A stretch of 61,439 nt of DNA, from NCBI GenBank assembly GCA_900696575.1, contig CAADHD010000009.1, positions 1 to 61,439 of the forward strand, given 5' to 3'. Each line of letters begins with the position of its first letter. The stretch's first letter is position 1. Below the pieces are notes generated by a model. The model saw nothing but the letters and a program-made list of their open reading frames with translations. It was not told where the DNA came from and did no database searches. The stretch comes from an uncultured Bacteroidota bacterium. Lineage in GTDB: Bacteria; Bacteroidota; Bacteroidia; AKYH767-A; OLB10. Both the position numbers and the translations under genes were made by a program. Shown piece after piece: positions 18,840 through 59,432 of the stretch.

Positions 18840-18869
18840 TTTGATATGTAATTGCTCCTGTTACTTTTG
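18840..18869 (+). promoter_or_regulatory. Bacteroidetes-type promoter (TTTG-N18-TACTTTTG)
   Basis: TTTG at 18840-18843 and TACTTTTG at 18862-18869 are separated by 18 bp, close to the Bacteroidetes sigma consensus (TTTG/N19/TAnnTTTG). The -7 element ends only 4 nt before the ATG at 18874, so the transcript is probably leaderless. This also decides the start of the following gene. Confidence 0.7.
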
Positions 18870-18873
18870 TCGC

Positions 18874-19329
18874 ATGAAAGACTTCGAACTGATAGTTTAC
18901 ATAATTGCTGCACTTATTTGGTTTATTTCAAAAAACTACCGTAAGGTTCAGCAAAACCGGCCCGGACAGCAGCCGGCCCCGGTGCAAGCACCGGAGCCGC
19001 AAAAACCTGTTCCGGCAGATAGAAAAAGAAAGAAACAAGCAGTAGCACTACCTGTAAAACCAGCACCATCCCAAAAAATTCCTTATCAGGCAATGAAAAG
19101 GCAAAGCCTTGCCAAAGAATATAAACCTATTCGCAAGTCTCCAGCGCCCGAATTTCTTAATACTGAAATTGAATCAACACAAAATTTTTTTCAAAAATTT
19201 CTTGCAACCGAAGAGCAACTTCATCCGGTTCAGATTCATGAAGCCGAAGACTTCAAACCATACCTTATGCCTGATGACCTCAAAAAAGCGATGATCTATG
19301 CTGAAATTATAAGGCGTCCTTATAACTAA
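18874..19329 (+). CDS. Small membrane-anchored protein of unknown function
   Basis: The 151-residue protein starts MKDFELIVYIIAALIWFISK, placing one N-terminal membrane helix (about residues 4-20) followed by a basic stop-transfer segment. A Pro/Ala/Lys-rich, low-complexity cytoplasmic stretch follows (about 28-75, with QQPAPVQAPEPQKPVPADR). The C-terminus is short, acidic and helix-rich (LMPDDLKKAMIYAEIIRRPY). An earlier ATG at 18844 in the same frame lies between the promoter boxes and is rejected. I do not recognise the family beyond its resemblance to other Bacteroidetes single-helix proteins with a conserved tail; the tail's conservation could not be tested. Confidence 0.6.
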   Translation: MKDFELIVYIIAALIWFISKNYRKVQQNRPGQQPAPVQAPEPQKPVPADRKRKKQAVALPVKPAPSQKIPYQAMKRQSLAKEYKPIRKSPAPEFLNTEIESTQNFFQKFLATEEQLHPVQIHEAEDFKPYLMPDDLKKAMIYAEIIRRPYN

Positions 19330-19422: not shown

Positions 19423-19452
19423 TTTGGGACTTGATAAAAGTTTCTACATTTA
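19423..19452 (+). promoter_or_regulatory. Putative promoter of the receptor/surface-protein/PorV cassette
   Basis: TTTG (19423-19426) and TACATTTA (19445-19452) are again 18 bp apart, with one mismatch at the last base of the -7 box. The box lies 43 nt before the ATG at 19496, and the cassette ends at the terminator at 28421. Confidence 0.5.
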
Positions 19453-19495
19453 CGCGCCTGAAAAAACGATTTACCCTGAACTAATCAAAAACTAT

Positions 19496-22400
19496 ATGCT
19501 AAGAAAATGTTACCTGGCTTTGGCCTTCATCAGCGTTTTAGGTTTTAACGCTTTCTCTCAAAACACCGGTTCCATCAGCGGAAAGGTGCTCGACAAAACA
19601 ACCGGAGAACCACTCCCGTTTGCCAACGTAATTGCCGAAATAAATGGCAGGCAGGCCGGTGGTGCTCAGACAGACATTGACGGTAAATTTACCATTAAGC
19701 CTCTTGCTCCCGGTAATTATGATATCAAAGCCTCCTTTGTCGGATATTCGGCTGCCGAAGTAAAGGGGATTCTGGTGTCTGCCGACAAAATCACCTACCA
19801 GGATTTAAAGTTAACCAAAGGAGCAGTGGATATTCAGGCAGTTGAAATTACCGAATGGAAGCAGCCAATTATTGATAAAGGTCAAACCAGTACCCAGCAA
19901 ACCATAACTCAGGAACAAATTCTGCAAGCGCCAACCAGAAGCGTAACTTCTATTGCTGCTACCAGTGCCGGTATTGTTCAGAAAGATGAAGGCGATGCCA
20001 TCAATGTTCGCGGTTCGCGAAGTGATGCCACAGATTATATTGTGGATGGTATTCGTGTTCGCGGAAGTCTTAAGCTTCCCCAATCAGCCGTTGAACAGAT
20101 AACAGTTAAAACAGGCGGTCTTGAAGCGCAGTATGGCGATAATACCGGTGGTGTAATTGTGGTGTCAACCCGTGGACCTGCTGAAGAAATCAGCGGTGGT
20201 GTTGAAGTAGTTACTTCCGAAATTTTTGATGATTATGGCTACAACCTTATTGGGGCAAACATTTCCGGCCCGATTTGGAAAAAGGAATCAGGTTCCGGAA
20301 AAAGGACAGTAGCAGGTTTCTTTCTTGGTGCAGAATATCAAAAAGAAAAAGACCCGGACCCTTCTGCTGTAGGAACATGGCAGTTAAAAGACGGAGTACT
20401 CGAAGATTTAAAGAAAGCACCGTTAAAATTAAACTCAATAGGTTCAGCGCTTGAACCTGCTGCCGTACGTATTACTGCTAATGATGTAGAGAAAATCAAC
20501 TATAAAAATAATGCTAACTCCAAAGGCTATTCTTTCAATGGGAAATTAGATTTAGCACCAACCAAAAACATCAACCTTACCTTCGGAGGAAGTTATGACA
20601 GAAGTGACCGAATGATTTTCAGTTTGAACAACATGCTGTTAAACAACTCGAATAACGAACAACGAATTGAATCAAACATTAATGCCTTTGCCCGGTTTAC
20701 TCACAAACTATCCAATACCGATGAAAAATCATCTTCTTTATTAAAGAATGCCTATTACAGCATTCAGTTTGATGTATCAAGGTTCACTCAAAAAAGACAG
20801 GACAGTGATCATCAGGACCGTTACTTTGATTACGGTTACATCGGAAAATTTACACAGCAGTTTACCCCGATTTTCAGTGCTCCTGACTCAACAGGTATCG
20901 TAACACAGCAGGCAATTGCCGCTACGGGTTATACATTTGTTCCCGGAGATGTAAATCCTGAAGGGCAGGCATATACTCAGGCTTATTATGATTATGCAAA
21001 TTCTATCGGAGTATTACCTACAACCTCTACGGGGGTTAGAAACAACAGTGCACTTATTAACGGGGATAACCCGCTAACCGTATTTGGCATTTGGAACCCT
21101 TTTGGCCAGGTATTCAACGGTTATGTTTTTACTGAGCAGAATCAATATACAGGACGTTTTGCTTTCTCAGCCGATGTTAAGAATCACAACTTTATGTTAG
21201 GCTTTGAATATGAGCAACGTGTGGAAAGAGCGTTCTCAGTTGCCCCCCGAAACCTATGGGGAAGAATGCGAAATCTGGCTAACACCGGGTTTAGCTTCTT
21301 TGGTGGAACCTATAATCTCGTAAACGATACTAATTTCTTTGTGCCAAGTTTTGCCAATCCAAATAATGCCACAGGTTTTTATCAGAATGTCAGAACGAAA
21401 CTTGGATTAGGATTAACTGATTATGTTGACATTGATTCTTATGACAGAGACAATTATTCATTAAGCCTTTTTACACCTGATGAACTGCTGAATCAGGGAT
21501 CTACATTTGTAACTTATTACGGTTATGACTACATAGGAAATAAACTTTCAGGAAAGCCATCATTTGAGTCCTTCTATAAAGAGAAAGATGAAAAAGGAAA
21601 TTTTACGCGTGGAATAGATGCCTTCCGCCCCAATTATATGGCTGTTTATCTGCAGGATAAATTTGACATTAATGACCTGATCTTTAACATAGGCGTACGT
21701 GTTGACCGTTTTGATGCAAATCAGAAAGTGCTTTCAGACCCCTATTCACTCTATCCAACAAAAACAGCGGGTCAGTTAAACATACCCAATCGCCCATCCA
21801 GTATAGGTGACGATTTTGTTCCCTATGTTCTTGATATTGCCAATCCTTCTGTAAACGAGATTATTGGCTATCGTGATGGAGAGACCTGGTACGATGCCTC
21901 CGGTGCTATAATTACTGACCCATCGGTATTGGCACAGATAAATTCAACTACGGTGATCTATCCCTATCTTGAAGACACAAGGCTTGCCTCTCCACGTGCC
22001 ATTGAAGGAGAGTATTTTGATCCGAACCGAAGTTTCAAAGATTATGAGCCTCAGATTACGGTAATGCCCCGCGTTGCGTTCTCCTTCCCCATCAGTGACG
22101 AAGCACAGTTCTTTGCTCACTATGATGTTTTAACTCAGCGTCCTTCAGGCAGACTACGCAATAATCCAGTTGACTATCTTTACTGGGAACTTGTTCAGGG
22201 TCCTCAATACACTAATCCGAATTTAAAACCGGAAAGAACCATTGACTATGAAGTAGGATTTAAACAAGCCCTTTCCAAAAGTTCTGCAATCAGTATCTCG
22301 GCTTTTTATCGTGAGTTAAAAGATATGATTCAGATTGTACAGCGCCCTTTTGCTTACCCACGAACTTATCAGACATGGGAAAACTTTGACTTTGGTACCG

Positions 22401-23131
22401 TTAAAGGCATTGTTCTTTCTTATGACATGCGCAGAACGGCCAATATCAGAATGAATGTTAACTATACTCTTCAGTTTGCTGAAGGAACCGGCTCAAGCGA
22501 TGCCGTGGCAAGCAAGCTACTGGATAACGGACTACCCAATCTTCGTAACCTTACCCCTCTTGATTATGACCAGCGCCATGTCTTTGTAGCCTCTGTGGAT
22601 TATCGTTATGGTAAGGGAAAAGACTACAATGGCCCTATGCTTTTTGGCAGTCAGTTTCTTGCCAATACCGGAGCTAACCTTGTTCTGCGTTTGAATTCAG
22701 GCACTCCTTATACCGCCAATTCAGATATTACTAATCAGGTTGCCAATATCGGAGTGCAACAAGTCGGTACCGGTGCGCTTAAAGGATCAATTAACGGATC
22801 TCGTTTACCGTGGCAGACTCGCCTCGATTTGAAAGTTGATAAAGAATTTGAAATTAAATTTAAAGGTGAAGGAAGCAGAGGACTTGGTATTAACGTCTAT
22901 GTACAAGTTCAGAATCTTTTGGATGCTAAAAATGTTCAAGGCGTTTATGCGGCTACCGGTGTTCCTGACGATGATGGTTTCCTTGCCTCTGCTCAAGGTC
23001 AACAGGCCATTAATCAATTACCTGTTGAGCAGCAGCAGGCCTTTATTGATCAATACTATATGAAATCTCCCAATCCGAACAACTACAGCATTCCACGAAG
23101 AATAAGACTTGGTGTTGGTATTAGTTTCTAA
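19496..23131 (+). CDS. TonB-dependent outer-membrane receptor with CarboxypepD_reg-like domain
   Basis: This is a protein of about 1211 residues. I start at MLRKCYLALAFISVLGF, the first Met with a signal peptide (ends AFSQ); the frame is open 24 codons further upstream without one. The exported protein begins with a CarboxypepD_reg-like beta-sandwich (GSISGKVLDKTTGEPLPFAN). A plug domain follows (INVRGSRSDATDYIVDGIRV and VKTGGLEAQYGDNTGGVI). The 22-strand barrel ends in the aromatic residue of RIRLGVGISF. No SusD partner is adjacent; instead the next two genes encode a large secreted protein and a PorV-like barrel. The substrate is unknown. Confidence 0.9.
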   Translation: MLRKCYLALAFISVLGFNAFSQNTGSISGKVLDKTTGEPLPFANVIAEINGRQAGGAQTDIDGKFTIKPLAPGNYDIKASFVGYSAAEVKGILVSADKITYQDLKLTKGAVDIQAVEITEWKQPIIDKGQTSTQQTITQEQILQAPTRSVTSIAATSAGIVQKDEGDAINVRGSRSDATDYIVDGIRVRGSLKLPQSAVEQITVKTGGLEAQYGDNTGGVIVVSTRGPAEEISGGVEVVTSEIFDDYGYNLIGANISGPIWKKESGSGKRTVAGFFLGAEYQKEKDPDPSAVGTWQLKDGVLEDLKKAPLKLNSIGSALEPAAVRITANDVEKINYKNNANSKGYSFNGKLDLAPTKNINLTFGGSYDRSDRMIFSLNNMLLNNSNNEQRIESNINAFARFTHKLSNTDEKSSSLLKNAYYSIQFDVSRFTQKRQDSDHQDRYFDYGYIGKFTQQFTPIFSAPDSTGIVTQQAIAATGYTFVPGDVNPEGQAYTQAYYDYANSIGVLPTTSTGVRNNSALINGDNPLTVFGIWNPFGQVFNGYVFTEQNQYTGRFAFSADVKNHNFMLGFEYEQRVERAFSVAPRNLWGRMRNLANTGFSFFGGTYNLVNDTNFFVPSFANPNNATGFYQNVRTKLGLGLTDYVDIDSYDRDNYSLSLFTPDELLNQGSTFVTYYGYDYIGNKLSGKPSFESFYKEKDEKGNFTRGIDAFRPNYMAVYLQDKFDINDLIFNIGVRVDRFDANQKVLSDPYSLYPTKTAGQLNIPNRPSSIGDDFVPYVLDIANPSVNEIIGYRDGETWYDASGAIITDPSVLAQINSTTVIYPYLEDTRLASPRAIEGEYFDPNRSFKDYEPQITVMPRVAFSFPISDEAQFFAHYDVLTQRPSGRLRNNPVDYLYWELVQGPQYTNPNLKPERTIDYEVGFKQALSKSSAISISAFYRELKDMIQIVQRPFAYPRTYQTWENFDFGTVKGIVLSYDMRRTANIRMNVNYTLQFAEGTGSSDAVASKLLDNGLPNLRNLTPLDYDQRHVFVASVDYRYGKGKDYNGPMLFGSQFLANTGANLVLRLNSGTPYTANSDITNQVANIGVQQVGTGALKGSINGSRLPWQTRLDLKVDKEFEIKFKGEGSRGLGINVYVQVQNLLDAKNVQGVYAATGVPDDDGFLASAQGQQAINQLPVEQQQAFIDQYYMKSPNPNNYSIPRRIRLGVGISF

Positions 23132-23165
23132 TCATAATTTTTTTAAATTTTAAAACTCTCTTATC

Positions 23166-26100
23166 ATGAAAAAGATAAAATTGATTGTAGCCCTTGGTTT
23201 GTCAGTTGCCTTACTGACACCTGCAACATTAGTTCTGTCAAAGGAAAATGTTACTGGAAATCCTAATAAGAAAAAGGGAAAATTATCCTCAGCATCTGCA
23301 GCGGGATGTGCCCCAACCACCACTCAGAATGATTTGGACATAAACAATATAAGAACCACCATTCTTGTTGGTGGTGATATGTGGTGGGATCTGGCAAATG
23401 CCAAATACGAAGTTCCGAAAAACAGCAGTAAACATTCCATTTTTGCAGGAGCATTATGGATTGGCGGTATTGATGCAGGAGGTAACATATTAGCAGCAGC
23501 TCAAACGTATCGTCAACAAGCCGGTAACGACTTCTGGGGTGGACCTTTAGATACTACTAATGTTTCTATTTCATTTCAACGTTGTATTGACTTTGATAAA
23601 CACTTCAGGGTTACAAAAGAAGAAGTGGAGACTTTTTTTGATGATCCTACCCCGGCAAATGCTACCAAAGCAATTAAGGAATGGCCCGGTAATGGTAATT
23701 TAAGCAACCCCACCGAAGGAAGATACCTTGCCCCGTTTGCTGATGTAAACGGTGATGGAGTTTATGATTATACCAGCGGAGACTATCCCGGTTTTCTGCT
23801 TACAGGCGATTATCCGGAAGTTCCTATTCCTAATACCAGTGCCGTAAAGGTTACATGCGATGACTATATCTTCGGGGATCAGGCTTTGTGGTGGGTGTTT
23901 AATGATGTGGGAGGTACTAAGACAGAAACTGAATCACCTTCCATCGGACTTGAAATAAGAGCCCAGGCATTTGCTTTCAAATCAAATGATGAAATCAATA
24001 ACATGACTTTTTATAAATACCAAATCATCAATCGGTCATTTAGCTCGTTGGCTCAGACTTATTTTGGCCAATGGGTTGACCCGGACCTGGGAAAATATGA
24101 TGATGATTATGTAGGTTGTGATGTTGTCAGAGGCTTAGGCTACTGCTATAATGGTGATGCCGAAGATGAAGGTGGAGATGGTTATGGATTAAATCCTCCT
24201 GCTGTTGGAGTAGATTTCTTTCAGGGACCTAAAGCTGATATTGGCGATGGCCTGGATAATGACAGAGATGGTTGCACAGATTGCACATTTATTACCGAGC
24301 CGGGAGGAAACGTTGTCAGTGTGCCGGATTATGAACTGCCCGAACTTATTATCATGTCAAAATTTGTTTACTACGAAAATGACTTTTCAGTAACTGGTAA
24401 TCCATCTCAATTAGATCATTATTACAATTACCTGCGTGGTATCTGGAAAGATGGAACCTCTATGACATGCGGAGGTAATGGGTATGGCGGAACAATTCCG
24501 GTAAATTTTATGTTTCCTGATAATACAGATCCCATCACTTGCCCTAACTGGACGGAAGCAAACTCAGGCAATGTTCCTGGCGACAGGCGCTTTCTACAAT
24601 CGGCAGGACCATTTACTCTTCAACCGGGTGCAGTAAATTACATTACCACCGGTGTTGTTTGGTCTCGTGCCACACAAGGCGGCCCTTGGGCTTCGGTTGA
24701 ATTAATCAAACTGGCCGATGATAAGGCACAGGCATTATTTGATAATTGCTTTAAACTTCTGGATGGCCCCAATGCCCCTGACCTTGCTATTCGTGAGTTG
24801 AATAAACAGATAATTATTTCCCTTGAAAATACCTATAGCCCGAAAATTGAACTCTATAATCAGCTTGATCCTACAATCTCAACAGTTAACGGTAATCCTG
24901 TACCTGACTCATTGAAATACTTCAAGTTTCAGGGTTACCAGATTTATCAGGTAAAAGATGCAAGCGTTGTAACCGCTGAACTTAAAAACCCCGACAGAGC
25001 GCGGCTTTTATTGCAATGCGATATCAGAGATGGGGTTTCAAAACTTGTAAACTTCTACTATGATGCCGGCTTAAATGCCCTTGTTCCTGTTGAAGAAGTA
25101 AATGGAAAAGATGAAGGTATTGTTCATTCTATAAAGGTAACTAAAGACTTGTTTGCCACCGGTGCTAATGATCTGGTTAACTTTAAAACATACTATTATC
25201 TGGCCATTTCCTACGCTTACAATAATTACTCTCCGTTTAATCCTTTTGACCCTAACCAGCTCGAAGGCCAGCAAAAGCCTTACAAAGCCGGACGTAACAA
25301 CATTAAAATTTATTCAGCAATACCTCATCCGCAACAGGTAGAGGCAAATGGTATGGTACTGAATGCTCAATTTGGAGAAGGACCTTCAATAAAACGTATT
25401 GAAGGAACAGGAAACGGTGGAAACATTCTTGATCTCACCTCCCAGACAGTAACCGAAATTTTGAATAATGGAATTGCATACAACCCTGTTTATGCTCGTT
25501 CTGCAGGTCCGCTTGGAATAAAAGTGTATGATCCGACCCTGGTTTCCGGAGGATCCTATGAAGTACGTTTTAATGGTGTAACAGACGCAGACAAGTGGAA
25601 TATGAAAGAAACAGGAAGCGGTATTTCGGTTGATGCTGATTTTCCGATTGGGTCGGCTAATGAACAAATCATGCGCGGCAGTAATTATGCATGGGGATTC
25701 TCTTCTAAAATTAACAATGTGATTGAAGCAGGTAAGGTTGGAGCTTTAAATAATGGCTTCCTTCAGGCTACAATTGCATACGCAGATAATCAGCAACGTT
25801 GGCTGTCAGGTGTAAAAGATGTGGATGGTCAAACCCCTGAAAACTGGATACGCAGCGGAACAACTACCGGAACCTTCCCTGATTATGCCGGCTTAGATGA
25901 TGCGCAGATTTACGAATCATTGATTGATGGTACCTGGGCTCCTTACAAATTGGCTGCGAAAGACAAGTATTACACACCGAAATACAACAACATTGCAGAA
26001 GCACAGATTCAGCTTTCTCCTACTGCCAATTCAAAAACAGGAATTTCAAGTGTTGACTTAGTAATAACCAGCGACAAGAGTAAATGGACTCGTTCTCCCG

Positions 26101-27290
26101 TAATTGAATTAGGCAGTGTCAATACAGCCACTATCGGGGGTGCCCGTCAGTTTGACCTTCGTAAATCACCCTCAATTGATAAAGATGGCAACCCTGGCGG
26201 TGACCTTTCAGTTCTTCCAACCGGTATGGGTTGGTTTCCCGGATACGCTATCAATCTTGAAACAGGTGAACGTCTGAACATTGCTTATGGCGAAAATTCA
26301 ATGCTCGATACTCAGAATGGTACAGATATGATCTGGAATCCTACCCGACAGAGCTATAAAGGTAATAACCCCCTTGATTCGGTTTACTTTGGCGGAATGC
26401 ATTATATCTACATCTTTGGACATAATGGCGATAATGTTTTCGGAAAAGCCGATGTCCCGGCTTATGACCAGGGAGCTTTTATAGGTAAAATGCTTGACTC
26501 TGCTTCTGTAACAAACAACAACACCATTCGAAGAAATGTATGGAAAGACTGTATGTGGACATCCATGCCATTACTTGCATCGGGCAAACAGTTGTTGTCT
26601 TCGGAGGTTACCATCAGACTTCGTGTTGCAAGAACATACAGACCTTTGGCCGGAGTTCCTACCCTCAATAACAATCAGGATCTTACTATTGGAAACACAT
26701 ATTATGTAAGCAGCACGCCTGTAACCTACAATAACGTAACCTACAATGTAGTGGGAGCCTCATTTGTTGCTTCCGGGCCGGCTACTAAGTTTACAGGTGC
26801 AGGATTAGTAACTGCAACAGCACCTCAAAATGGATTTAATCCCTTGTATCAGTTTAACACGAATGATTTAAAACCTGTTAAAGGCGATGCAGAAACTGCC
26901 AAGTCTGCTCTCGATTTGATTTCTATTGTTCCGAATCCCTATTACGCCTATTCGGCCTATGAAGGCACTCTTGGAGTAGTTGGCCAATTGGACAACAGGG
27001 TAAGAATTACCAACCTGCCCAGTAAGTGTACTGTTACTATTTTCAACCTTAATGGAACACTGGTTCGCAAATTCCTCCGCGATGTTGCCAGCGACAATTC
27101 TTCAGGCGGTGAAACAGAAGATCTTAAAAACCCGAATGCTGCAACATTCATTGACTGGGACATGAAAAATCACAAAGGAATAACAATCAGCAGCGGTATC
27201 TATCTGATTAATGTAAGCTCACCAACATTAGGCGAGCGCACCATTAAATGGTTCGGAGTTATGAGACCCATTGACCTTGATACTTTCTGA
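23166..27290 (+). CDS. Large secreted surface protein with FlgD-like C-terminus, TonB-receptor partner
   Basis: This 1374-residue exported protein starts MKKIKLIVALGLSVALLTPA (signal peptide). I recognise no enzyme domain. An N-terminal block has GDMWWDLANAKYEVP and SIFAGALWIGGIDAGG. Acidic Ca-binding-like loops follow: DVNGDGVYDYTSGDYPG, and GDGLDNDRDGCTDC, which resembles thrombospondin-3 repeats. The C-terminus is a FlgD-like Ig fold (ISIVPNPYYAYSAYEG, TIFNLNGTLVRKF, SGIYLINVSS) ending KWFGVMRPIDLDTF. This differs from a canonical T9SS tail, since it lacks the usual basic end. It lies 34 bp after the receptor gene and 43 bp before the PorV-like gene, so it may be their substrate or surface partner. 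Confidence 0.7.
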   Translation: MKKIKLIVALGLSVALLTPATLVLSKENVTGNPNKKKGKLSSASAAGCAPTTTQNDLDINNIRTTILVGGDMWWDLANAKYEVPKNSSKHSIFAGALWIGGIDAGGNILAAAQTYRQQAGNDFWGGPLDTTNVSISFQRCIDFDKHFRVTKEEVETFFDDPTPANATKAIKEWPGNGNLSNPTEGRYLAPFADVNGDGVYDYTSGDYPGFLLTGDYPEVPIPNTSAVKVTCDDYIFGDQALWWVFNDVGGTKTETESPSIGLEIRAQAFAFKSNDEINNMTFYKYQIINRSFSSLAQTYFGQWVDPDLGKYDDDYVGCDVVRGLGYCYNGDAEDEGGDGYGLNPPAVGVDFFQGPKADIGDGLDNDRDGCTDCTFITEPGGNVVSVPDYELPELIIMSKFVYYENDFSVTGNPSQLDHYYNYLRGIWKDGTSMTCGGNGYGGTIPVNFMFPDNTDPITCPNWTEANSGNVPGDRRFLQSAGPFTLQPGAVNYITTGVVWSRATQGGPWASVELIKLADDKAQALFDNCFKLLDGPNAPDLAIRELNKQIIISLENTYSPKIELYNQLDPTISTVNGNPVPDSLKYFKFQGYQIYQVKDASVVTAELKNPDRARLLLQCDIRDGVSKLVNFYYDAGLNALVPVEEVNGKDEGIVHSIKVTKDLFATGANDLVNFKTYYYLAISYAYNNYSPFNPFDPNQLEGQQKPYKAGRNNIKIYSAIPHPQQVEANGMVLNAQFGEGPSIKRIEGTGNGGNILDLTSQTVTEILNNGIAYNPVYARSAGPLGIKVYDPTLVSGGSYEVRFNGVTDADKWNMKETGSGISVDADFPIGSANEQIMRGSNYAWGFSSKINNVIEAGKVGALNNGFLQATIAYADNQQRWLSGVKDVDGQTPENWIRSGTTTGTFPDYAGLDDAQIYESLIDGTWAPYKLAAKDKYYTPKYNNIAEAQIQLSPTANSKTGISSVDLVITSDKSKWTRSPVIELGSVNTATIGGARQFDLRKSPSIDKDGNPGGDLSVLPTGMGWFPGYAINLETGERLNIAYGENSMLDTQNGTDMIWNPTRQSYKGNNPLDSVYFGGMHYIYIFGHNGDNVFGKADVPAYDQGAFIGKMLDSASVTNNNTIRRNVWKDCMWTSMPLLASGKQLLSSEVTIRLRVARTYRPLAGVPTLNNNQDLTIGNTYYVSSTPVTYNNVTYNVVGASFVASGPATKFTGAGLVTATAPQNGFNPLYQFNTNDLKPVKGDAETAKSALDLISIVPNPYYAYSAYEGTLGVVGQLDNRVRITNLPSKCTVTIFNLNGTLVRKFLRDVASDNSSGGETEDLKNPNAATFIDWDMKNHKGITISSGIYLINVSSPTLGERTIKWFGVMRPIDLDTF

Positions 27291-27333
27291 TGTTTAAACG
27301 ATAAACTAACTAAACCAATTAAAGCAAAAAGTT

Positions 27334-28392
27334 ATGAACCTGATAAAGAAAACAACCATTGTACTCACTTCGGCAATTGCACTGAGTTCTTTTGCCATTG
27401 CCGGTAATAACGATCGTGCAGGTCAGGCCGGTGCATCAGAGCTTTTAGTAAATCCATGGGCAAGAAGTTCCGGTTGGGGCAATGTAAATGTCTCCGGAGC
27501 TAAGGGTGTTGAATCTATGTTTATGAACGTTGCAGGACTTTCCTTTGCCCGCAAGCCCGAAGTTTATTTCAGCCACACACAATGGCTGAAAGGAAGCGAC
27601 ATAAGTATCAACAGCGCTGGTTTTGTTACTGGTGTAGGCGAGTCGGGAGCTCTCGGTATTTCACTAATGGCTATGAGTTTTGGAGATGTTCAAATCACAA
27701 CTGTTGAAAATCCTGAGGGTGGAATAGGATATTACACCCCCCAGTTCTTCAATTTGGGAGTCTCTTATGCAAAGTCATTTTCAAAGAGTATTAAAGGAGG
27801 AGCAACCGTACGGATAATTTCAGAATCAATTGCAAATGTGAAATCATCAGGTGTGGCTTTTGATGCCGGCATTCAATACATCACCGGATGGAATGAAGAA
27901 GAAGATAACCTGAAGTTCGGCTTAACGCTTAAAAATGTAGGCTCGCCTATGCGTTATTCCGGTGACGGTCTTTCATTCCGCGGAAACCCTCCGGTGGAAA
28001 GTAACTATCAAATGACTCTTGAACAGCGTGCAGACCGCTTCGAACTTCCTTCAGTAATGGGAATTGGTGCTTCTTACGATTGGAAATTAGCCGAGAATCA
28101 TACGCTGACTACAGCAGGCGCTTTTTATTCAAATTCATTTACTAATGATCAATTCTGCTTTGGGCTGGAGTATTCTTTCAAAAAACTCTTCAGCCTTCGT
28201 GGCGGATATATCATGGAAAAAGATGCAGGCAATGAAGACAACACTTTTACTGCTTCTAAAGGAATGTCAGGCGGTGCCACCGTTGAACTTCCTTTAGGCA
28301 AGGGCGGGAAAAAATTGGGAATTGACTATTCATACCGCGCAACACATTTCTTTGACGGAACCCACAGTTTCGGTTTACGCTTGTCTCTATAA
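27334..28392 (+). CDS. PorV/PorQ-family outer-membrane beta-barrel
   Basis: This 352-residue protein has a signal peptide (about residues 1-23, ending AIAG). It then shows the PorV/PorQ start pattern (AGQAGASELLVNPWARSSGWG, then FMNVAGLSF). Alternating beta strands of an outer-membrane barrel continue to the end (GTHSFGLRLSL). PorV shuttles T9SS cargo from the SprA translocon to the attachment complex in studied species. Finding a paralogue directly behind a large secreted protein suggests a dedicated escort. Its length is close to that of PorV and PorQ. It is the last gene of the three-gene cassette; a terminator follows 28 nt after the stop. Confidence 0.8.
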   Translation: MNLIKKTTIVLTSAIALSSFAIAGNNDRAGQAGASELLVNPWARSSGWGNVNVSGAKGVESMFMNVAGLSFARKPEVYFSHTQWLKGSDISINSAGFVTGVGESGALGISLMAMSFGDVQITTVENPEGGIGYYTPQFFNLGVSYAKSFSKSIKGGATVRIISESIANVKSSGVAFDAGIQYITGWNEEEDNLKFGLTLKNVGSPMRYSGDGLSFRGNPPVESNYQMTLEQRADRFELPSVMGIGASYDWKLAENHTLTTAGAFYSNSFTNDQFCFGLEYSFKKLFSLRGGYIMEKDAGNEDNTFTASKGMSGGATVELPLGKGGKKLGIDYSYRATHFFDGTHSFGLRLSL

Positions 28393-28420
28393 AGAATTAT
28401 TCAATTGTTATTTGTAAGAG

Positions 28421-28450
28421 GACCTTGTCTCGGCAAGGTCTTCTTCCATT
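28421..28450 (+). terminator. Terminator of the receptor/surface-protein/PorV cassette
   Basis: GACCTTG (28421-28427) pairs with CAAGGTC (28434-28440) around TCTCGG, followed by the T-rich TTCTTCCATTTT. Confidence 0.75.
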
Positions 28451-52169: not shown

Positions 52170-55100
52170 GTGCAGATAAAGAAGTTTTTCAAGATTGGCC
52201 TTGCAGCCGGCCTTTCAATCTCAGTGTTAAAAATGGTGTGGGGAAAAGACCCTGCTTCCTTTTCGGATACGTATCTTAAAAAAATTGCCGCTTCAGAGCT
52301 TCCGTCTCCTGCAGAAGATACTCCGCGCATTCAGCTTCCCTATCCATTTCCCGACCGGCCGGGCGATCCTTTCGGGCCATACTCGCCCGAACATCCGCTT
52401 TACATGGGCAATCCTTCCAACATCAATACTACCATTGAGTACAATCCGGAAGAGAAGCAGTACGATATTATGGAGCGCATCGGTAATATGTATTATCGCA
52501 ATCCATCGTATCTAACCTTTGATGAATTTCGTGAACATGAATTTAATAATTCCACTCGCAACTATTGGAAACAGCGTGCCGGTGAAGAAGACCAGCTCCT
52601 GAAGAAAGGCTTCAATCCTAAAATTTATGTGGGCAGCGATGTGTTCGACAGGATTTTTGGCGGCAATACCATTGACATCCGCCCGCAGGGTTCTGCCGAA
52701 TTGATTTTCGGATTGAACATTCAGCACAATGAAAATCCTGCAATTCCCGAAAAGCAGCGCACCTTCACCACGTTCGATTTTAAAGAGAAAATCCAGATGA
52801 GCGTAATTGGCAACATCGGGGAGAAAATGAAACTACAGGTAAACTATAACACCGAAGCCAGTTTCGATTTCGAAAACAAAATGAAATTAGAATACACCGG
52901 CAAGGAAGATGAAATCATTCAGAAATTGGAGGCCGGTAATGTTACCCTTCCGCTTGCAGGTTCTCTGATACAGGGCAGTCAGGCATTGTTTGGAATAAAA
53001 TCGCAACTGAAATTCGGAAGAATGAAAGTAACCACGGTGCTTTCTCAGCAGAAAGGTCAGCGCTCTACCGTTAATGTTCCTCCGGGCGGTGGGCAGATTA
53101 CCAACTTTGAAGTATTAGCTGATCAGTACGAAGCCAACCGCCACTTTTTCCTTGCGCAGTATTTCCGCGAGAATTATGACAAAGCATTAAGCACACTTCC
53201 GGTAATCAATACCAATTACACCATTACCAAAATTGAAGTATGGAAAACCAACCGCAGTGCACGCAACGAATCGAACCGTGATGTTGTCGCTTTCCAGGAT
53301 TTGGGAGAATATAACTATTACGCCAATGGTTTTGTAGGGCAGGGAAGTTCGGTTTATCCTTCCGACAGTTTGTCAAACGACCTGTATAAAAAAATTACTA
53401 CGCAGTACAGCGGCATCCGCGATGTAAACCAGGCAGCCTCTATTCTGAGTTCGCTTAATACTCCTCCCTCCAATTTTGTAGCGCAGCGCGATTATGTTAT
53501 TATCCGTAATGCCATTAAACTTTCTCCGAATGATTACACCTTCAATCCCCGCATTGGTTTTCTTTCCTTGAATTCAGCATTGAATCCTGATGAAGAGCTT
53601 GCCGTTGCTTTTGAATATACCGTTAGCGGTGAGGTGCTTCGCGTTGGTGAACTGACAACCGAAGGCATTGACCCAACGCAGACTTTGGTAGTAAAACTCA
53701 TACGAAGCAAAGCCGTGAATCCGCAGATTCCATTATGGAAACTGATGATGAAAAATATTTATTCACTACAGGGGTACCAGATACAACGGGAAAATTTCAG
53801 GCTTGATGTGTATTATGCCGATGATGCCGATGGCGGAAAAAAGAAACGCTTTCTCTCTGCCGGTAACAACGAACCAACCGTTAGCGAGAATCCGCTGATC
53901 CGTTTACTGAATCTTGACAACCTCAATACGAATGGCGACCCTGTACGTGGTGGCGATGGAGTTTTTGATTTTGTGGAAGGAACAACCATCAACACCACCA
54001 ACGGAAGAATTATCTTCCCTGTGCTGGAGCCTTTCGGAAAAAACTTAGCCAAACAGTTTAACGATCCCGCCAATGCAAACAAGTTTGTTTATCAGGAATT
54101 GTACGATTCAACACTTACCGTTGCACAACAGTTTGCAACCAAAAATAAGTTCAGCATATCCGGAAGTTATCAGAGCGCATCGGGCAGCGAGATTTCACTC
54201 AATGCAATCAATATCCCGCAAGGAGCAGTTACAGTTACTGCCGGTGGAGTTACGCTTGTAGAAAATCAGGATTATACGGTTGATTACAACCTCGGAAGAG
54301 TAAAAATTATTAATGCAGGATTACTTGCTTCCAATACCCCCATTCAGGTTTCGGTAGAAAGCCAGTCTCTGTTCAGCATCCAGTCAAAAACATTGGTAGG
54401 TACACGTTTCGATTTTGAGGCAAGTAAAGATCTGACCATCGGTGGAACTTTTCTGCATGTAAATGAAAGACCTTTTACCCAAAAGGTAAACATAGGCGAT
54501 GAACCCATCAGTAATGTCATCTGGGGGCTGGATGGAACCTACCGTACCGAGTCGCGCATGCTGACCAAACTGATAGACAAACTTCCTTTGATTGAGACCA
54601 AAGAAAATTCAAGCCTCACATTCAGCGGTGAGTTTGCGCAGTTTATTCCCGGCCATTCAGGAGCTATAGGCAGCAGTGGCAATGCTTATATTGATGACTT
54701 TGAAGGCAGCCAGAGTACCATTGACATACGAAACCCCGGTAATTGGTTTTTAGCCAGCACCCCGCAGGGGCAACCCACCCTGTTTCCCGAAACGCAGGGA
54801 CAGTTTATTGACAGTTTGAAATACGGCTTTAACCGCGCAAGACTTGGCTGGTACACCATTGACCCTTCAGTTTTTTATCGCAACAACTCAAGTCTGCTTC
54901 CGCCTAACATTACCAACAGCGATTTATCTAACAACAATGTGAGAGCAGTACGAGAAAAAGAAATTTTTCCGAATAAAAGCTTGGCAAATAATGTGGATGT
55001 GGAATTGCCCATTATGAACCTGGCTTTTTATCCTGAGGAACGCGGGCCTTACAATTTCGATGCTGAGCCTACTTTAATCTCCTCCGGAATGAATACTAAC

Positions 55101-58100
55101 GGAAAATTAAATAACCCTGCTTCTCGTTGGGGCGGCATTATGCGAAGAATTGAAACCAGCGATTTTGAAGCTTCTAATGTGGAATTCATTCAGTTCTGGA
55201 TGATGGATCCGTTCCATCCTGAAAACATTAACGGAAATACAGGAGGCAAACTTTACTTCAACCTCGGTACCATTTCAGAAGATATTCTGAGCGATGGTCA
55301 TCAGTTTTTCGAAAACGGATTACCAACACCCAGCCAGCCTGATCTTGAAACAGGAACATCCTCATGGGGAAAATATCCAAAGACGGATGATATTACCAAA
55401 GCATTTATCAATGACCCTAACGATGCCAATGCATCCCGTAAAGCGCAGGATGTTGGTCTTGACGGATTAAATACTACGGAAGAACAGTCATTTCATCAAC
55501 AATACTTCAGCCGCCTTGCTGCTGCCGGAGTTGACCCAAATGTGATCAGCCAAATTCAAAATGACCCCAGCGCTGATGATTTTAAATACTTCCGCGGCTC
55601 TGATGCCGATGCCGCCCAACTTGGCATTCTTGACCGCTACAAATTATACAGCAATACCGATGGCAATAGTAACCCCGAATCTCCGGAAGGATATCCGATT
55701 TCTGCAACCACAACTCCCGATAACGAAGACATCAACCGCGATTTTCAAACCGAGCAGGATGAGAATTACTATCAGTATGAAGTAGATTTGAATCCTACGC
55801 AACTTTCAAAGTACGTTGTTGACCAGATAACTGCAACTACCGCTACCCCTGACAATACATCACGAACGGTAACATGGTATCAGTTCCGTATCCCCGTTAA
55901 AAAGCCTGATCAGATTGTTGGATTAGGCGCTAACATGAAGTCAGTGAATTTTATACGTATGTATTTTAAAGACTGGACAAACCCAATCGTGCTTCGCATG
56001 GCAAAACTGGAGTTGCTGCGTGGCGAATGGCGCAGGTATCCGTTTGCATTGGAACAGGAGGGAAGTGCTGTTGACCTTGACCAGTTTCAATTCAATGTAT
56101 CAGTCGTCAACATAGAAGAAAACGGAAGGCGTACTCCTATTAACTATGTATTGCCTCCGGGTATATCCCGCGACATTGTTGTAGGCAGCCCCACCAATCA
56201 GCAACTCAATGAGCAGGCTTTATCAGTGCGCGTATGCAACATGCCCGATGGCGCTGAACGGGCAGTTTATAAAACCACGCAGTTTGATGTTCGCAATTAC
56301 AAGCGTTTGAAAATGTTCATCCATGCCGAAGACCTTGGCCCGGTTGACCAGCTTCGCGATAATGAACTGGTGGCCTTTATCCGCATGGGTTCCGACTTTA
56401 CCAACAACTATTACGAATACGAAATTCCATTGAAGGTTACCCGCTGGGGCTCATCGGTTGATACCGACATATGGCCGGCAGAAAATGAAATGAATGTGCT
56501 CATACAGAAACTGACCGATGCAAAACTCGATCGCGATAAAAACGGCATTCCATACACCGACCGTTATTCGTTGTTTGATGACGGCAAGCGCATTACCGTA
56601 AAAGGAAATCCTACATTGGGAATCGTCAAGACGCTGATGATCGGTATAAGAAATTATGCAGCCGGTGACAATCCTTTTCTGAGCGATGATGACGGCCAGC
56701 CCAAGTGTGCCGAAATATGGGTGAACGAACTGCGTATGAGCGACTTTAACGAAGAAGGCGGATGGGCTGCCAATGCCCGCATTCAGGCTAAACTGGCTGA
56801 TTTCGGAAACCTGACCTTAAGCGGTTCCAAAAGCACTTATGGTTTCGGCCAATTAGAAAGCAAAATCAATGAAAGGCAAACGGATAACAGAACGCAATAC
56901 GACATTGCTGCCAATCTGGAACTCGGAAAACTGCTGCCCGAAAAATCAGGCGTTTCCGTGCCGATGTATGTAAGCTATGGAAAGGAAATAGCCCGGCCCG
57001 AATACAATCCGCTGAATAATGATATTAAACTTGAGCAATCGCTCGAAGTATTGCCTGATGATAAAGCAAGGCAGGAACTGAAAAACATAACCGAAGATTA
57101 CACACGCAGAAAGAGCATAAACTTTACCAATGTCAGGAAAAATAAAACCGGAGGAGCCGCCAATAAACCCAAGGTCTATGACGTGGAGAATCTGAACTTC
57201 ACTTATGGCTACAACGAAACTTACAAACGCAATGTAAATACCCAATACGATTTAGTAAAAGATTACAATGCTGCTATTGGCTATAACTTCAATGCCCAGC
57301 CTAAAACCTTTCAGCCGTTCCAGAAATCAAAAGGATTAACTTCCAAATATGCACGACCCATAAAAGATTTTAATCTGAATCCGTTACCCTCGTCATTCAG
57401 TTTCCGTACTGATGTTAACCGTCATTACCAGGAAGTAAAGCTGCGCGACATCAACAACAGCGATTATTCACCTCCTCCGTTTTACGATAAGCGCTTTACT
57501 ATGGGAAGGCAATATGCCCTGACCTGGGATATTACGCGTGCTTTGAAACTTGATTTCACTGCCAATAACCTTGCCCGCATTGATGAGCCTGAAGGCGCCC
57601 TTGATACCAAAGCCAAACGCGACAGTATGTGGGAAAACTTCTGGAACCTTGGCCGCAATACCGATTACCGGCAAGAGGGTAATATCACCTACAACGTTCC
57701 CCTTAACAAACTGCCCATTACCGACTGGGTGAGCATGAATGCCCGTTACGGGTTTAATTACCACTGGTCGGCATCGCCACTGTTGTATGACCCCGTTACC
57801 AATCAGCCGCGCATCAATCCTGCTCTTGGAAACACCATTGAAAACTCCAACAGCAAACAACTGAATACTACATTTACACTTACCACGCTTTACAACAAAG
57901 TGCCGGTATTCAAAAAGCTGTTAGGCCCCAAGCCGCCCCCCAAACCTCCTGCGCCTAAACCTGCACCGCTACCGCAGGATACTGCTGGCGGCAAGAAACC
58001 TGTGCTACCTAAAGAGAAAAAAGAGCGTCAGTTTACCGACTTTGAAAGAGGTGTGGCCAAGTTTATTCTCAGCGTAAGAAATTTCAATATCAATTACACT

Positions 58101-59432
58101 CAATCCAAAGGAACCCTGCTTCCGGGTTATACGCGCACTACTGAAATGTTCGGGAACAATTTTTACACCGATGTATCCGGAAAAAGCACCTATGCTCCGG
58201 GATTCGGCTTTGTATTTGGTGAACAGGACCCTGACTTCAAGTTCCGCGCAGCCAATAACGGTTGGATAACCCGCGATTCGACCATGAACAACCAGTTAAC
58301 CAATACATACACCACCAACCTCACCGCCCGCAGCAACATTGAACCCCTTAACGGATTAAAGATTGACCTTAACTGGACACGCATCTTCGCCAAAAATCAC
58401 TCCGAGTATTTCCGTACCGGAAGCAATGGCGAGTTTCGTTCTTTTAACGAAGTGGATGCAGGTAACTTCAGCATTTCATGGTTAACTATTAACTCCGCCT
58501 TTACCAAAGACCGGAAAGATTATACTAACGAAATATTCGACCAGTTTGATCAGAACCGGAAAATCATTTCACAGCGGTTGGCGGAGTTGAATAATTTCTC
58601 CAACGGATTTGATACAGCCGGATACAATGATGGTTATGGTGCCACTTCGCAGGAAGTGCTTACCTATGCTTTCATTGCTGCTTACAGCGGTCAGGATGCC
58701 GGCAAGATTGGTCTCGGGAAAGGCGATAAAAGCCTTTTCCCTTCCATGCCTAAACCCAACTGGAAAGTTACCTATGACGGATTAACCAAGATTGCAGCAG
58801 TTAGAAAAATTTTTCAGACAGTGAGCTTGTCGCATGGATACCGCTCATCACTTAACATTAATTCCTATTCAACCAGCCTGCAATACCGTAAGGAAGGAAC
58901 GCCTGCACGTAATCAGTCAGGCAATTTTATTCCGCAATACGAAGTTCAGCAAATCAGCATCACCGAGCAATTCTCTCCGTTACTTGGTGTTGATGTAAGA
59001 TTAAAAAGCGGAATTTCTGCACGCGTTGAATACAAAAAAGACCGTAACCTCTCACTTTCTTATGCAGGTGTTCAGCTTACCGAAACCAAAGGCAACGAAA
59101 TTGTAATTGGAACCGGTTACCGGTTCAAACCTAAGTTCCCGATTAAGCTTGGCGGCAAGCGCGTAGTACTTAACAACGAACTTAATCTAACGGGCGATGT
59201 TTCCTTCCGTAGAAACAGCACTATTCTTCGCAAATTGCAGGAGCGTATCAACCAGCCGACAGCCGGCCTGTACGTAGTGTCCTTCAAACTGGCAGCCGAC
59301 TATGCAGTGAATGAACGAATGAACGTTAAAGCATTCTTCGACCGCACTGCCAACGAGCCTTTGATTTCAACTTCCTTCCCGACTACCAGCACCCAGTTCG
59401 GCATCAGCATCAGGTTTACATTAGCACAGTAA
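52170..59432 (+). CDS. sprA: T9SS outer-membrane translocon SprA (Sov)
   Basis: SprA is the giant 36-strand barrel that forms the T9SS outer-membrane channel. At 2420 residues it has the family's usual length. It starts with GTG (MQIKKFFKIGLAAGLSISVL, a signal peptide). Conserved early blocks include KIYVGSDVFDRIFGGNTIDI, FGLNIQHNENPAIPEKQRT and QMSVIGNIGEKMKLQVNYN. A late Pro-rich stretch is PPPKPPAPKPAPLPQD. It ends with barrel strands and a terminal TQFGISIRFTLAQ. gcvH, vanZ and tonB follow on the same strand, an arrangement often seen in Bacteroidetes. It is the export route for the T9SS-tailed cargo listed in this window. Confidence 0.97.
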   Translation: MQIKKFFKIGLAAGLSISVLKMVWGKDPASFSDTYLKKIAASELPSPAEDTPRIQLPYPFPDRPGDPFGPYSPEHPLYMGNPSNINTTIEYNPEEKQYDIMERIGNMYYRNPSYLTFDEFREHEFNNSTRNYWKQRAGEEDQLLKKGFNPKIYVGSDVFDRIFGGNTIDIRPQGSAELIFGLNIQHNENPAIPEKQRTFTTFDFKEKIQMSVIGNIGEKMKLQVNYNTEASFDFENKMKLEYTGKEDEIIQKLEAGNVTLPLAGSLIQGSQALFGIKSQLKFGRMKVTTVLSQQKGQRSTVNVPPGGGQITNFEVLADQYEANRHFFLAQYFRENYDKALSTLPVINTNYTITKIEVWKTNRSARNESNRDVVAFQDLGEYNYYANGFVGQGSSVYPSDSLSNDLYKKITTQYSGIRDVNQAASILSSLNTPPSNFVAQRDYVIIRNAIKLSPNDYTFNPRIGFLSLNSALNPDEELAVAFEYTVSGEVLRVGELTTEGIDPTQTLVVKLIRSKAVNPQIPLWKLMMKNIYSLQGYQIQRENFRLDVYYADDADGGKKKRFLSAGNNEPTVSENPLIRLLNLDNLNTNGDPVRGGDGVFDFVEGTTINTTNGRIIFPVLEPFGKNLAKQFNDPANANKFVYQELYDSTLTVAQQFATKNKFSISGSYQSASGSEISLNAINIPQGAVTVTAGGVTLVENQDYTVDYNLGRVKIINAGLLASNTPIQVSVESQSLFSIQSKTLVGTRFDFEASKDLTIGGTFLHVNERPFTQKVNIGDEPISNVIWGLDGTYRTESRMLTKLIDKLPLIETKENSSLTFSGEFAQFIPGHSGAIGSSGNAYIDDFEGSQSTIDIRNPGNWFLASTPQGQPTLFPETQGQFIDSLKYGFNRARLGWYTIDPSVFYRNNSSLLPPNITNSDLSNNNVRAVREKEIFPNKSLANNVDVELPIMNLAFYPEERGPYNFDAEPTLISSGMNTNGKLNNPASRWGGIMRRIETSDFEASNVEFIQFWMMDPFHPENINGNTGGKLYFNLGTISEDILSDGHQFFENGLPTPSQPDLETGTSSWGKYPKTDDITKAFINDPNDANASRKAQDVGLDGLNTTEEQSFHQQYFSRLAAAGVDPNVISQIQNDPSADDFKYFRGSDADAAQLGILDRYKLYSNTDGNSNPESPEGYPISATTTPDNEDINRDFQTEQDENYYQYEVDLNPTQLSKYVVDQITATTATPDNTSRTVTWYQFRIPVKKPDQIVGLGANMKSVNFIRMYFKDWTNPIVLRMAKLELLRGEWRRYPFALEQEGSAVDLDQFQFNVSVVNIEENGRRTPINYVLPPGISRDIVVGSPTNQQLNEQALSVRVCNMPDGAERAVYKTTQFDVRNYKRLKMFIHAEDLGPVDQLRDNELVAFIRMGSDFTNNYYEYEIPLKVTRWGSSVDTDIWPAENEMNVLIQKLTDAKLDRDKNGIPYTDRYSLFDDGKRITVKGNPTLGIVKTLMIGIRNYAAGDNPFLSDDDGQPKCAEIWVNELRMSDFNEEGGWAANARIQAKLADFGNLTLSGSKSTYGFGQLESKINERQTDNRTQYDIAANLELGKLLPEKSGVSVPMYVSYGKEIARPEYNPLNNDIKLEQSLEVLPDDKARQELKNITEDYTRRKSINFTNVRKNKTGGAANKPKVYDVENLNFTYGYNETYKRNVNTQYDLVKDYNAAIGYNFNAQPKTFQPFQKSKGLTSKYARPIKDFNLNPLPSSFSFRTDVNRHYQEVKLRDINNSDYSPPPFYDKRFTMGRQYALTWDITRALKLDFTANNLARIDEPEGALDTKAKRDSMWENFWNLGRNTDYRQEGNITYNVPLNKLPITDWVSMNARYGFNYHWSASPLLYDPVTNQPRINPALGNTIENSNSKQLNTTFTLTTLYNKVPVFKKLLGPKPPPKPPAPKPAPLPQDTAGGKKPVLPKEKKERQFTDFERGVAKFILSVRNFNINYTQSKGTLLPGYTRTTEMFGNNFYTDVSGKSTYAPGFGFVFGEQDPDFKFRAANNGWITRDSTMNNQLTNTYTTNLTARSNIEPLNGLKIDLNWTRIFAKNHSEYFRTGSNGEFRSFNEVDAGNFSISWLTINSAFTKDRKDYTNEIFDQFDQNRKIISQRLAELNNFSNGFDTAGYNDGYGATSQEVLTYAFIAAYSGQDAGKIGLGKGDKSLFPSMPKPNWKVTYDGLTKIAAVRKIFQTVSLSHGYRSSLNINSYSTSLQYRKEGTPARNQSGNFIPQYEVQQISITEQFSPLLGVDVRLKSGISARVEYKKDRNLSLSYAGVQLTETKGNEIVIGTGYRFKPKFPIKLGGKRVVLNNELNLTGDVSFRRNSTILRKLQERINQPTAGLYVVSFKLAADYAVNERMNVKAFFDRTANEPLISTSFPTTSTQFGISIRFTLAQ

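Follow-up and report, generated by a model that had tools for sequence, protein, structure and literature searches.

A conserved gene cassette in Bacteroidota joins a TonB-dependent receptor, a giant surface protein with a type IX-like C-terminal domain and a PorV-family barrel

What do a TonB-dependent receptor, a very large exported protein and an outer membrane barrel of the PorV/PorQ family have to do with one another? The question is raised by three consecutive plus-strand genes, separated by only 34 bp (receptor to middle gene) and 43 bp (middle gene to barrel), on a contig of an uncultured Bacteroidota bacterium (CAADHD010000009.1, positions 1 to 61,439; this whole stretch of 61,439 nucleotides is called the window). 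The middle gene encodes a 1374-residue protein, here named BIG. A preliminary description of the window named the three products, on which open reading frames (ORFs), Pfam and NCBIfam agree, and proposed a dedicated unit for export, escort and uptake. The reading developed here is a probable one: BIG would be exported by the type IX secretion system (T9SS), held by its own PorV-family barrel through an uncleaved C-terminal domain (CTD) and placed at the service of the TonB receptor, so that the three proteins form one outer membrane module.

The gene order and its conservation are direct observations. Species-representative genomes scanned with BIG yield 72 loci (the near set), 52 of which carry the contiguous receptor-BIG-barrel triplet. 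The other 20 comprise eight orphan BIG genes, two loci with a type A tail (L071 and L077), two broken frames (L039 and L073) and eight cuts by contig ends. The receptor is 33-77% identical across the near loci that have it. Among 68 far loci, from other families and classes of the phylum, the triplet is present in 62, a count that does not describe a random sample because BIG or CTD hits, mostly with a downstream barrel already known, guided the choice of loci. Its misses are L163-L165, where several kb lie between BIG and a receptor followed by the barrel; L172, a tandem array of BIG genes ending in a barrel; and L145 and L146, which are cut. Conserved synteny had been named beforehand, in the preliminary description, as the test by which its proposal could be refuted, and the proposal withstood it in both sets.

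In a phylum sample of 392 genomes, with BIG called at E up to 1e-10, 194 genomes are positive. Among the matches listed, a continuous full-length BIG occurs in the same class only, in eight genomes, in one case as pieces at contig ends; outside this class, separate matches are seen for the N-terminal half and for the CTD. Within the class the positive families are f1, f6, f7 and f8, with none in the heavily sampled f2, f3, f5 and f9; if the model organisms fall in these BIG-free families, that would explain why the triplet has gone unnoticed. The triplet is common to much of the phylum, and points to a little-noticed way to build surface machines.

How would BIG reach the surface? The preliminary description held that it lacks a standard T9SS tail. 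This stands as far as the type A models are concerned: TIGR04183 and PF18962 do not match BIG at E up to 1, and BIG has no place among the 150 scored PF18962 matches of its own genome (206 candidates). The type B model TIGR04131 is likewise unlisted, at E up to 1, for the window protein and 42 family members. A CTD is present nonetheless, and BIG as a protein devoid of a T9SS signal is ruled out by profile matches to PorZ and PorU together with the predicted fold. At E up to 1, the C-terminal halves of the 42 family members match the PorZ model in 38 cases, PorU in 26 and type A TIGR04183 in 23. Against the whole-protein PorZ equivalog NF052228, BIG scores 26.7 of the 260 bits of the cut-off, through its CTD part only, and the sole match of the BIG profile to PDB sequences is PorU, at E 0.88. 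An AlphaFold2 model of residues 690-1374 (mean predicted local distance difference test, pLDDT, 82.8) leads Foldseek to the PorZ structure 5m11 at E 8.4e-6. In structural alignment PorZ ranks first (Z 9.7, root-mean-square deviation (rmsd) 2.6 Å over 90 residues) and PorU second (Z 8.6, rmsd 3.3 Å over 94 residues), ahead of the CTDs of mirolase (Z 7.1) and of NucA in the translocon (Z 6.5). By profile and predicted fold, the last ~125 residues are a divergent T9SS CTD of the PorZ/PorU kind. PMC5562754 and PMC10202324 describe PorZ and PorU as T9SS proteins that keep their CTDs and are bound to PorQ and PorV, and contacts between PorV and a CTD have been observed with RemZ (PMC10994853).

The end of this domain, RPIDLDTF in the window protein, had been singled out as unusual and proves to be a family trait. 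In the near set of 64 CTDs, which takes in the second BIG of the same genome, 61 end exactly 13 residues after a conserved Lys, the last residue being Phe in 52 and Tyr in 8. The same spacing holds in 29 of the 75 far CTDs, where many others end like type A tails. In the model of the lone protein the tail end is poorly ordered, of low confidence and without a strand, as would be expected if it needs a partner. The two near loci with an ordinary type A tail, L071 and L077, have BIG-like N-terminal parts (one with PKD domains), and their contigs contain neither a barrel match nor a receptor match; they look like proteins whose C-terminal signal has been swapped naturally.

The barrel that follows BIG belongs to the PorV/PorQ family, with 168.6 bits against the cut-off of 90 of NF033709, a model that also matches 35 of the 35 members of barrel set A2 at E up to 1e-5. 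It falls below the equivalog cut-offs of both PorV proper (NF033710, 87.3 of 250 bits) and PorQ proper (NF033711, 71.4 of 220 bits). Elsewhere in the genome, contig C6 has a PorU-like ORF (PorU being named by eye) and after it another PorV-family gene, a further PorV-family gene on contig C33 is presumably PorQ, and PorZ scores above its cut-off at another locus with 615 bits. Because PorV- and PorQ-like genes, PorZ and sprA are all present, the genome has a T9SS and the cassette barrel is a third PorV-family member. A barrel of this family is fused to two OmpA-family domains in L076 (12075-14213); the fusion suits a fixed anchor better than a mobile shuttle and perhaps ties that barrel to peptidoglycan.

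The pairing of this kind of CTD with a PorV-family gene is also seen directly. Sixteen genomes contain 145 PorV-family matches (2-14 per genome) and 95 BIG-type CTDs, hand-picked as those among the matches listed that reach the CTD end of the profile. Among the matches listed, a PorV-family gene lies downstream of 76 of these 95 on the same strand, no more than 1.5 kb away (median 83 bp), compared with 0.2 expected by chance; a single genome may contain as many as nine such pairs. A PorV-family neighbor follows 0 of 150 type A tails from these 16 genomes, the best-scoring among the matches listed. These counts bear on the view that BIG is ordinary T9SS cargo of the housekeeping PorV and PorU, next to a plain FadL-type channel that aids uptake by the receptor. 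The barrel family does have weak matches to the FadL-type channels TbuX and TodX, orphan BIG genes exist, and the 23 C-terminal halves that match the type A model could be read in the same direction. However, the best relative of the barrel family in the PDB is PorV itself (E 1.8e-15), and ordinary cargo does not have the neighbor that BIG-type CTDs have; this view is very unlikely.

Two other arrangements were met among these genomes. In L168 and L172 (genome G302), about four tandem BIG-type genes occur per single PorV-family gene. A second kind of cluster, found once each in 10 of the 16 genomes, has a CTD protein of 692-1105 aa and, ~7 kb further along that strand, a PorV-family gene; L163-L165 are of this kind, and the receptor lies directly 5' of the barrel in all three that were read.

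If the CTD and the barrel recognize each other, the type of tail should follow the type of barrel. A maximum likelihood tree of 79 barrels groups those adjacent to long-tail CTDs in a single clade (support 100/100), and the tail label requires 3-4 changes on the tree versus ~26 when shuffled. L178, labeled 'tail II' on the tree and by eye Lys + 13, and L048, with Lys + 14, both lie within the long-tail clade. The placement of the genome's own PorV and PorQ is unsure because of long branches. The match between tail type and barrel clade is what cognate recognition would predict.

The translocon itself is another matter. The gene for SprA (2420 aa) lies in the window at 52170-59432, ~24 kb downstream of the cassette. 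The co-occurrence of the two genes in the phylum sample is plain: sprA is present in 194 of 194 BIG-positive and 125 of 198 BIG-negative genomes (Fisher p 8e-26, kinship ignored), and BIG occurs in 0 of 73 sprA-negative genomes at the cut-off used. With at least 150 Por_Secre_tail matches (206 candidates), the 2.87-Mb genome of the window has a large set of T9SS cargo. The cassette as a self-contained export machine is rejected, the translocon gene lying outside it and sprA being separate. Export of BIG by the T9SS is well supported. Within the proposed dedicated unit for export and escort, 'export' is therefore too strong a word, since the ordinary translocon is the likely route; escort or anchoring is favored by the gene pairing, the PorZ/PorU-like CTD and the match between tail and clade.

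These elements suggest the following pathway. BIG would pass through Sec and then through SprA, using its CTD of the PorZ/PorU kind, and the neighboring PorV-family barrel would receive this CTD at the translocon. The barrel would retain the uncleaved CTD as a permanent non-covalent anchor, comparable to PorQ with PorZ, a step that has fair support. BIG held in this way may provide the TonB-dependent receptor of the cassette with its extracellular subunit, a role suggested by synteny, and would probably capture or gate a ligand, perhaps glycan-like, for uptake. The retention step is of wider interest. PorV is usually regarded as the single shuttle for type A cargo (PMC12618676), and PorQ is a special case in that view, whereas here a single kind of CTD is paired with PorV-family genes across many lineages of the phylum. 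The pairing offers a natural test of the suggestion, made in PMC10202324, that a cognate PorV-like barrel shields the CTD from cleavage.

What does the receptor contribute? It has Plug (PF07715), TonB barrel (PF00593) and CarboxypepD_reg domains above the Pfam cut-offs, which makes it a TonB-dependent receptor. The SusC/RagA models of NCBIfam do not match it at E up to 1, and its profile has no match among PDB sequences at 1e-20. One alternative limits its part: BIG and the barrel would be a cognate shuttle or anchor pair, and the receptor merely their operon partner, for example in co-regulated nutrient uptake, never binding BIG. The link between CTD and barrel has the stronger mechanistic precedent (PorZ with PorQ, and type B CTDs with PorP/SprF), and the gene order in L163-L165 indicates that BIG need not abut the receptor. 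Yet the receptor lies directly 5' of BIG in 114 contiguous triplets (52 + 62). Distances for receptor, BIG CTD and barrel in the far set correlate at 0.60-0.77, and those of the receptor track the other two proteins with Spearman coefficients of 0.74 and 0.77. A receptor that is only an operon partner is an unlikely explanation.

The N-terminal part of BIG gives a hint of the ligand. In an AlphaFold2 model of residues 30-745 (mean pLDDT 84.9), residues ~43-531 form a predicted super-β-sandwich that aligns with the N-domains of GH15/65/94/116-type enzymes, with Z 14.8-19.1 over ~230-270 residues; Foldseek alone gives a weaker result (E 1.6e-4, TM 0.19 of the query). These N-domains are presumably non-catalytic, and the predicted likeness hints at a glycan-like ligand. 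For the middle of BIG (~740-1230) the fold searches list zero matches, the listed rows being filled by relatives of the CTD, and this result is therefore no evidence for a new fold. The Ca-binding-like loop of the preliminary description is borne out: D-x-D/N-G-D-G-x-Y-D occurs in BIG and in the family consensus. The SusD family PF07980 does not match BIG at E up to 1, and the BIG model is mainly β.

A third alternative is that the cassette is a T9SS housekeeping or envelope-assembly module, such as an extra attachment complex, with the receptor as a structural or energized part and no role in uptake. Its genomic setting resembles a core locus: in the near set, 48 of the 52 triplets have greA 3' of the cassette, and the sequence of the other four stops no more than ~500 bp from the barrel match; a HIT gene is present in 40 of the triplets, and both genes are housekeeping neighbors. 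With up to two candidates scored per genome, a single match is seen in five of the eight BIG-positive genomes of the class and two matches in three, and in its own class BIG coexists with up to 66 SusD genes. A precedent exists as well, since the barrel assembly machinery (BAM) of Bacteroidota already pairs a FadL-type barrel with a surface protein (PMC12578637). Against this, the nine CTD-barrel pairs reached by single genomes of other classes are more like substrate-specific transporters, and 125 of 319 sprA-positive genomes are without BIG at the cut-off used. A housekeeping role is quite unlikely.

The SusD comparison raised a further candidate, the triplet as a substitute for SusCD. SusD is unmatched in the genome of the window at E up to 1e-5 and absent from 9 of the 16 other BIG-positive genomes, the rest carrying 1-6, while eight hand-picked BIG-negative members of the class have 8-37 SusD genes. 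As a rule this substitution is unsupported, because SusD genes number 1-66 in seven BIG-positive genomes of that class. The contrast looks like a lineage effect and is therefore not used as support.

Several observations, that coexistence with SusD among them, weigh against the module of anchored BIG and receptor. The eight orphan BIG genes of the near set (L016, L024, L028-L032 and L036) have neither a barrel nor a full receptor alongside, L016 and L036 having a weak N-terminal receptor match nearby. The genome of the window itself has a second BIG (C33:45900-50003; L010, L086), 63% identical, with no adjoining receptor or barrel and with a tail of Lys + 12 from which the final Phe is missing. 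The neighboring barrel is therefore dispensable at times or acts in trans. Joint inheritance of the triplet may equally give the match between tail and barrel clade. Nearest neighbors agree for all three proteins in 28 of 59 loci, which implies some reshuffling or noise, and agreement between barrel and BIG is the weakest, at 33 of 59. Many unrelated Ig-like domains reach Z 6-7.8 with the CTD model, the lead of PorZ and PorU is modest, and a fold common to carbohydrate enzymes gives no proof of function.

A broader form of the proposal is possible, if somewhat doubtful: a third, phylum-wide architecture for outer membrane uptake, in which a TonB receptor works, in place of a lipoprotein lid, with a T9SS-delivered giant subunit tethered by an uncleaved PorZ-type CTD, each receptor system has a PorV paralogue as its dedicated anchor, and the CTD tail serves as an address code. 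If true, TonB transport and the T9SS would be linked, with the receptor complex obtaining its outer subunit from the T9SS and not by the lipoprotein route. The preliminary description had also suggested an undescribed system. Its parts are of known kinds; what appears new is their combination in a triplet, together with the fixed-tail CTD and a third subfamily of barrels; in the open-licence PMC literature (preprints excluded), to the extent that its text was accessible, no description of a triplet of TonB receptor, T9SS protein and PorV-family barrel was found.

The features of the locus are collected in Table 1. The preliminary description placed it between one promoter and one terminator. 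A hairpin closes the unit, although it is absent from the output of a consensus terminator scan of the window. The promoter-like site is weak evidence because the same pattern, a Bacteroidota-type consensus, occurs at 26 sites within the window. For the receptor, a start at ATG 19496 was preferred over TTG 19424, and the signal peptides of the cassette proteins were judged by eye. Upstream of the receptor, 18841-19329 encodes a protein of 162 aa without a Pfam match; it has a hydrophobic segment in its N-terminal part and a C-terminal end that recurs in relatives (YAEIIxRPY in L018, YSEILKRPYN in L014). Upstream genes were rejected as members of the cassette; a scan of two loci shows a 2-hydroxyacid dehydrogenase there and, at one of them, also an rRNA dimethylase.

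Table 1. Features of the receptor-BIG-barrel cassette, in window coordinates
Feature	Position	Strand	Basis or remark
Promoter-like site, TTTG-N18-TACATTTA	19423..19452	+	-7 motif, 5/6 positions
TonB-dependent receptor, 1211 aa; CarboxypepD_reg, Plug and barrel	19496..23131	+	ORF, Pfam
BIG, 1374-aa exported surface protein with T9SS-type CTD	23166..27290	+	ORF, profiles, predicted fold
BIG residues ~43-531, predicted super-β-sandwich domain	23292..24758	+	Z 14.8-19.1 over ~230-270 residues
BIG residues ~1242-1367, T9SS CTD closest to PorZ and PorU	26889..27266	+	Profiles, predicted fold
BIG C-terminal tail of fixed length, conserved Lys + 13 residues, Phe last	27246..27287	+	
PorV/PorQ-family outer membrane barrel, 352 aa	27334..28392	+	Below PorV-proper and PorQ-proper cut-offs
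Terminator-like hairpin	28416..28445	+	-19.4 kcal/mol for 50 nt folded; closes unit

A comparison of the cassette with known systems shows how the same basic parts recur. In SusC-SusD and RagAB, a TonB receptor has a dedicated large extracellular partner encoded beside it, and the cassette receptor similarly adjoins the gene for a large extracellular partner. Unlike theirs, this partner is T9SS-type and lies outside the SusD family, and the receptor has no SusC/RagA match in NCBIfam. BamG-BamH shares the pairing of a FadL-type barrel with a surface protein, the FadL homologue binding its partner through extracellular loops; it differs in being part of barrel assembly, and the authors of PMC12578637 doubt a PorV-like role for BamG. 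The type B substrates of Flavobacterium johnsoniae and Porphyromonas gingivalis resemble BIG in that the gene for the barrel lies 3' of its own T9SS substrate and the barrel is both cognate shuttle and surface anchor, as proposed for the cassette. Their PorP/SprF barrel is commonly encoded directly downstream (PMC12618676; PMC9143113); the CTD family and the barrel family are different from those of the cassette, and the parts of these sources consulted name no TonB receptor in the unit. Finally, in the attachment complex of P. gingivalis (PorQ-PorZ and PorV-PorU), the CTD is kept and a PorV/PorQ-family barrel holds the exported protein, as proposed here for BIG, whose CTD is nearest to those of PorZ and PorU. 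BIG as a whole is neither of these proteins, its CTD alone matching, and its retention would be the counterpart of theirs. The cassette barrel likewise falls below the cut-offs of both PorQ and PorV, and to the shared design the cassette adds a tail of fixed length and a paired TonB receptor.

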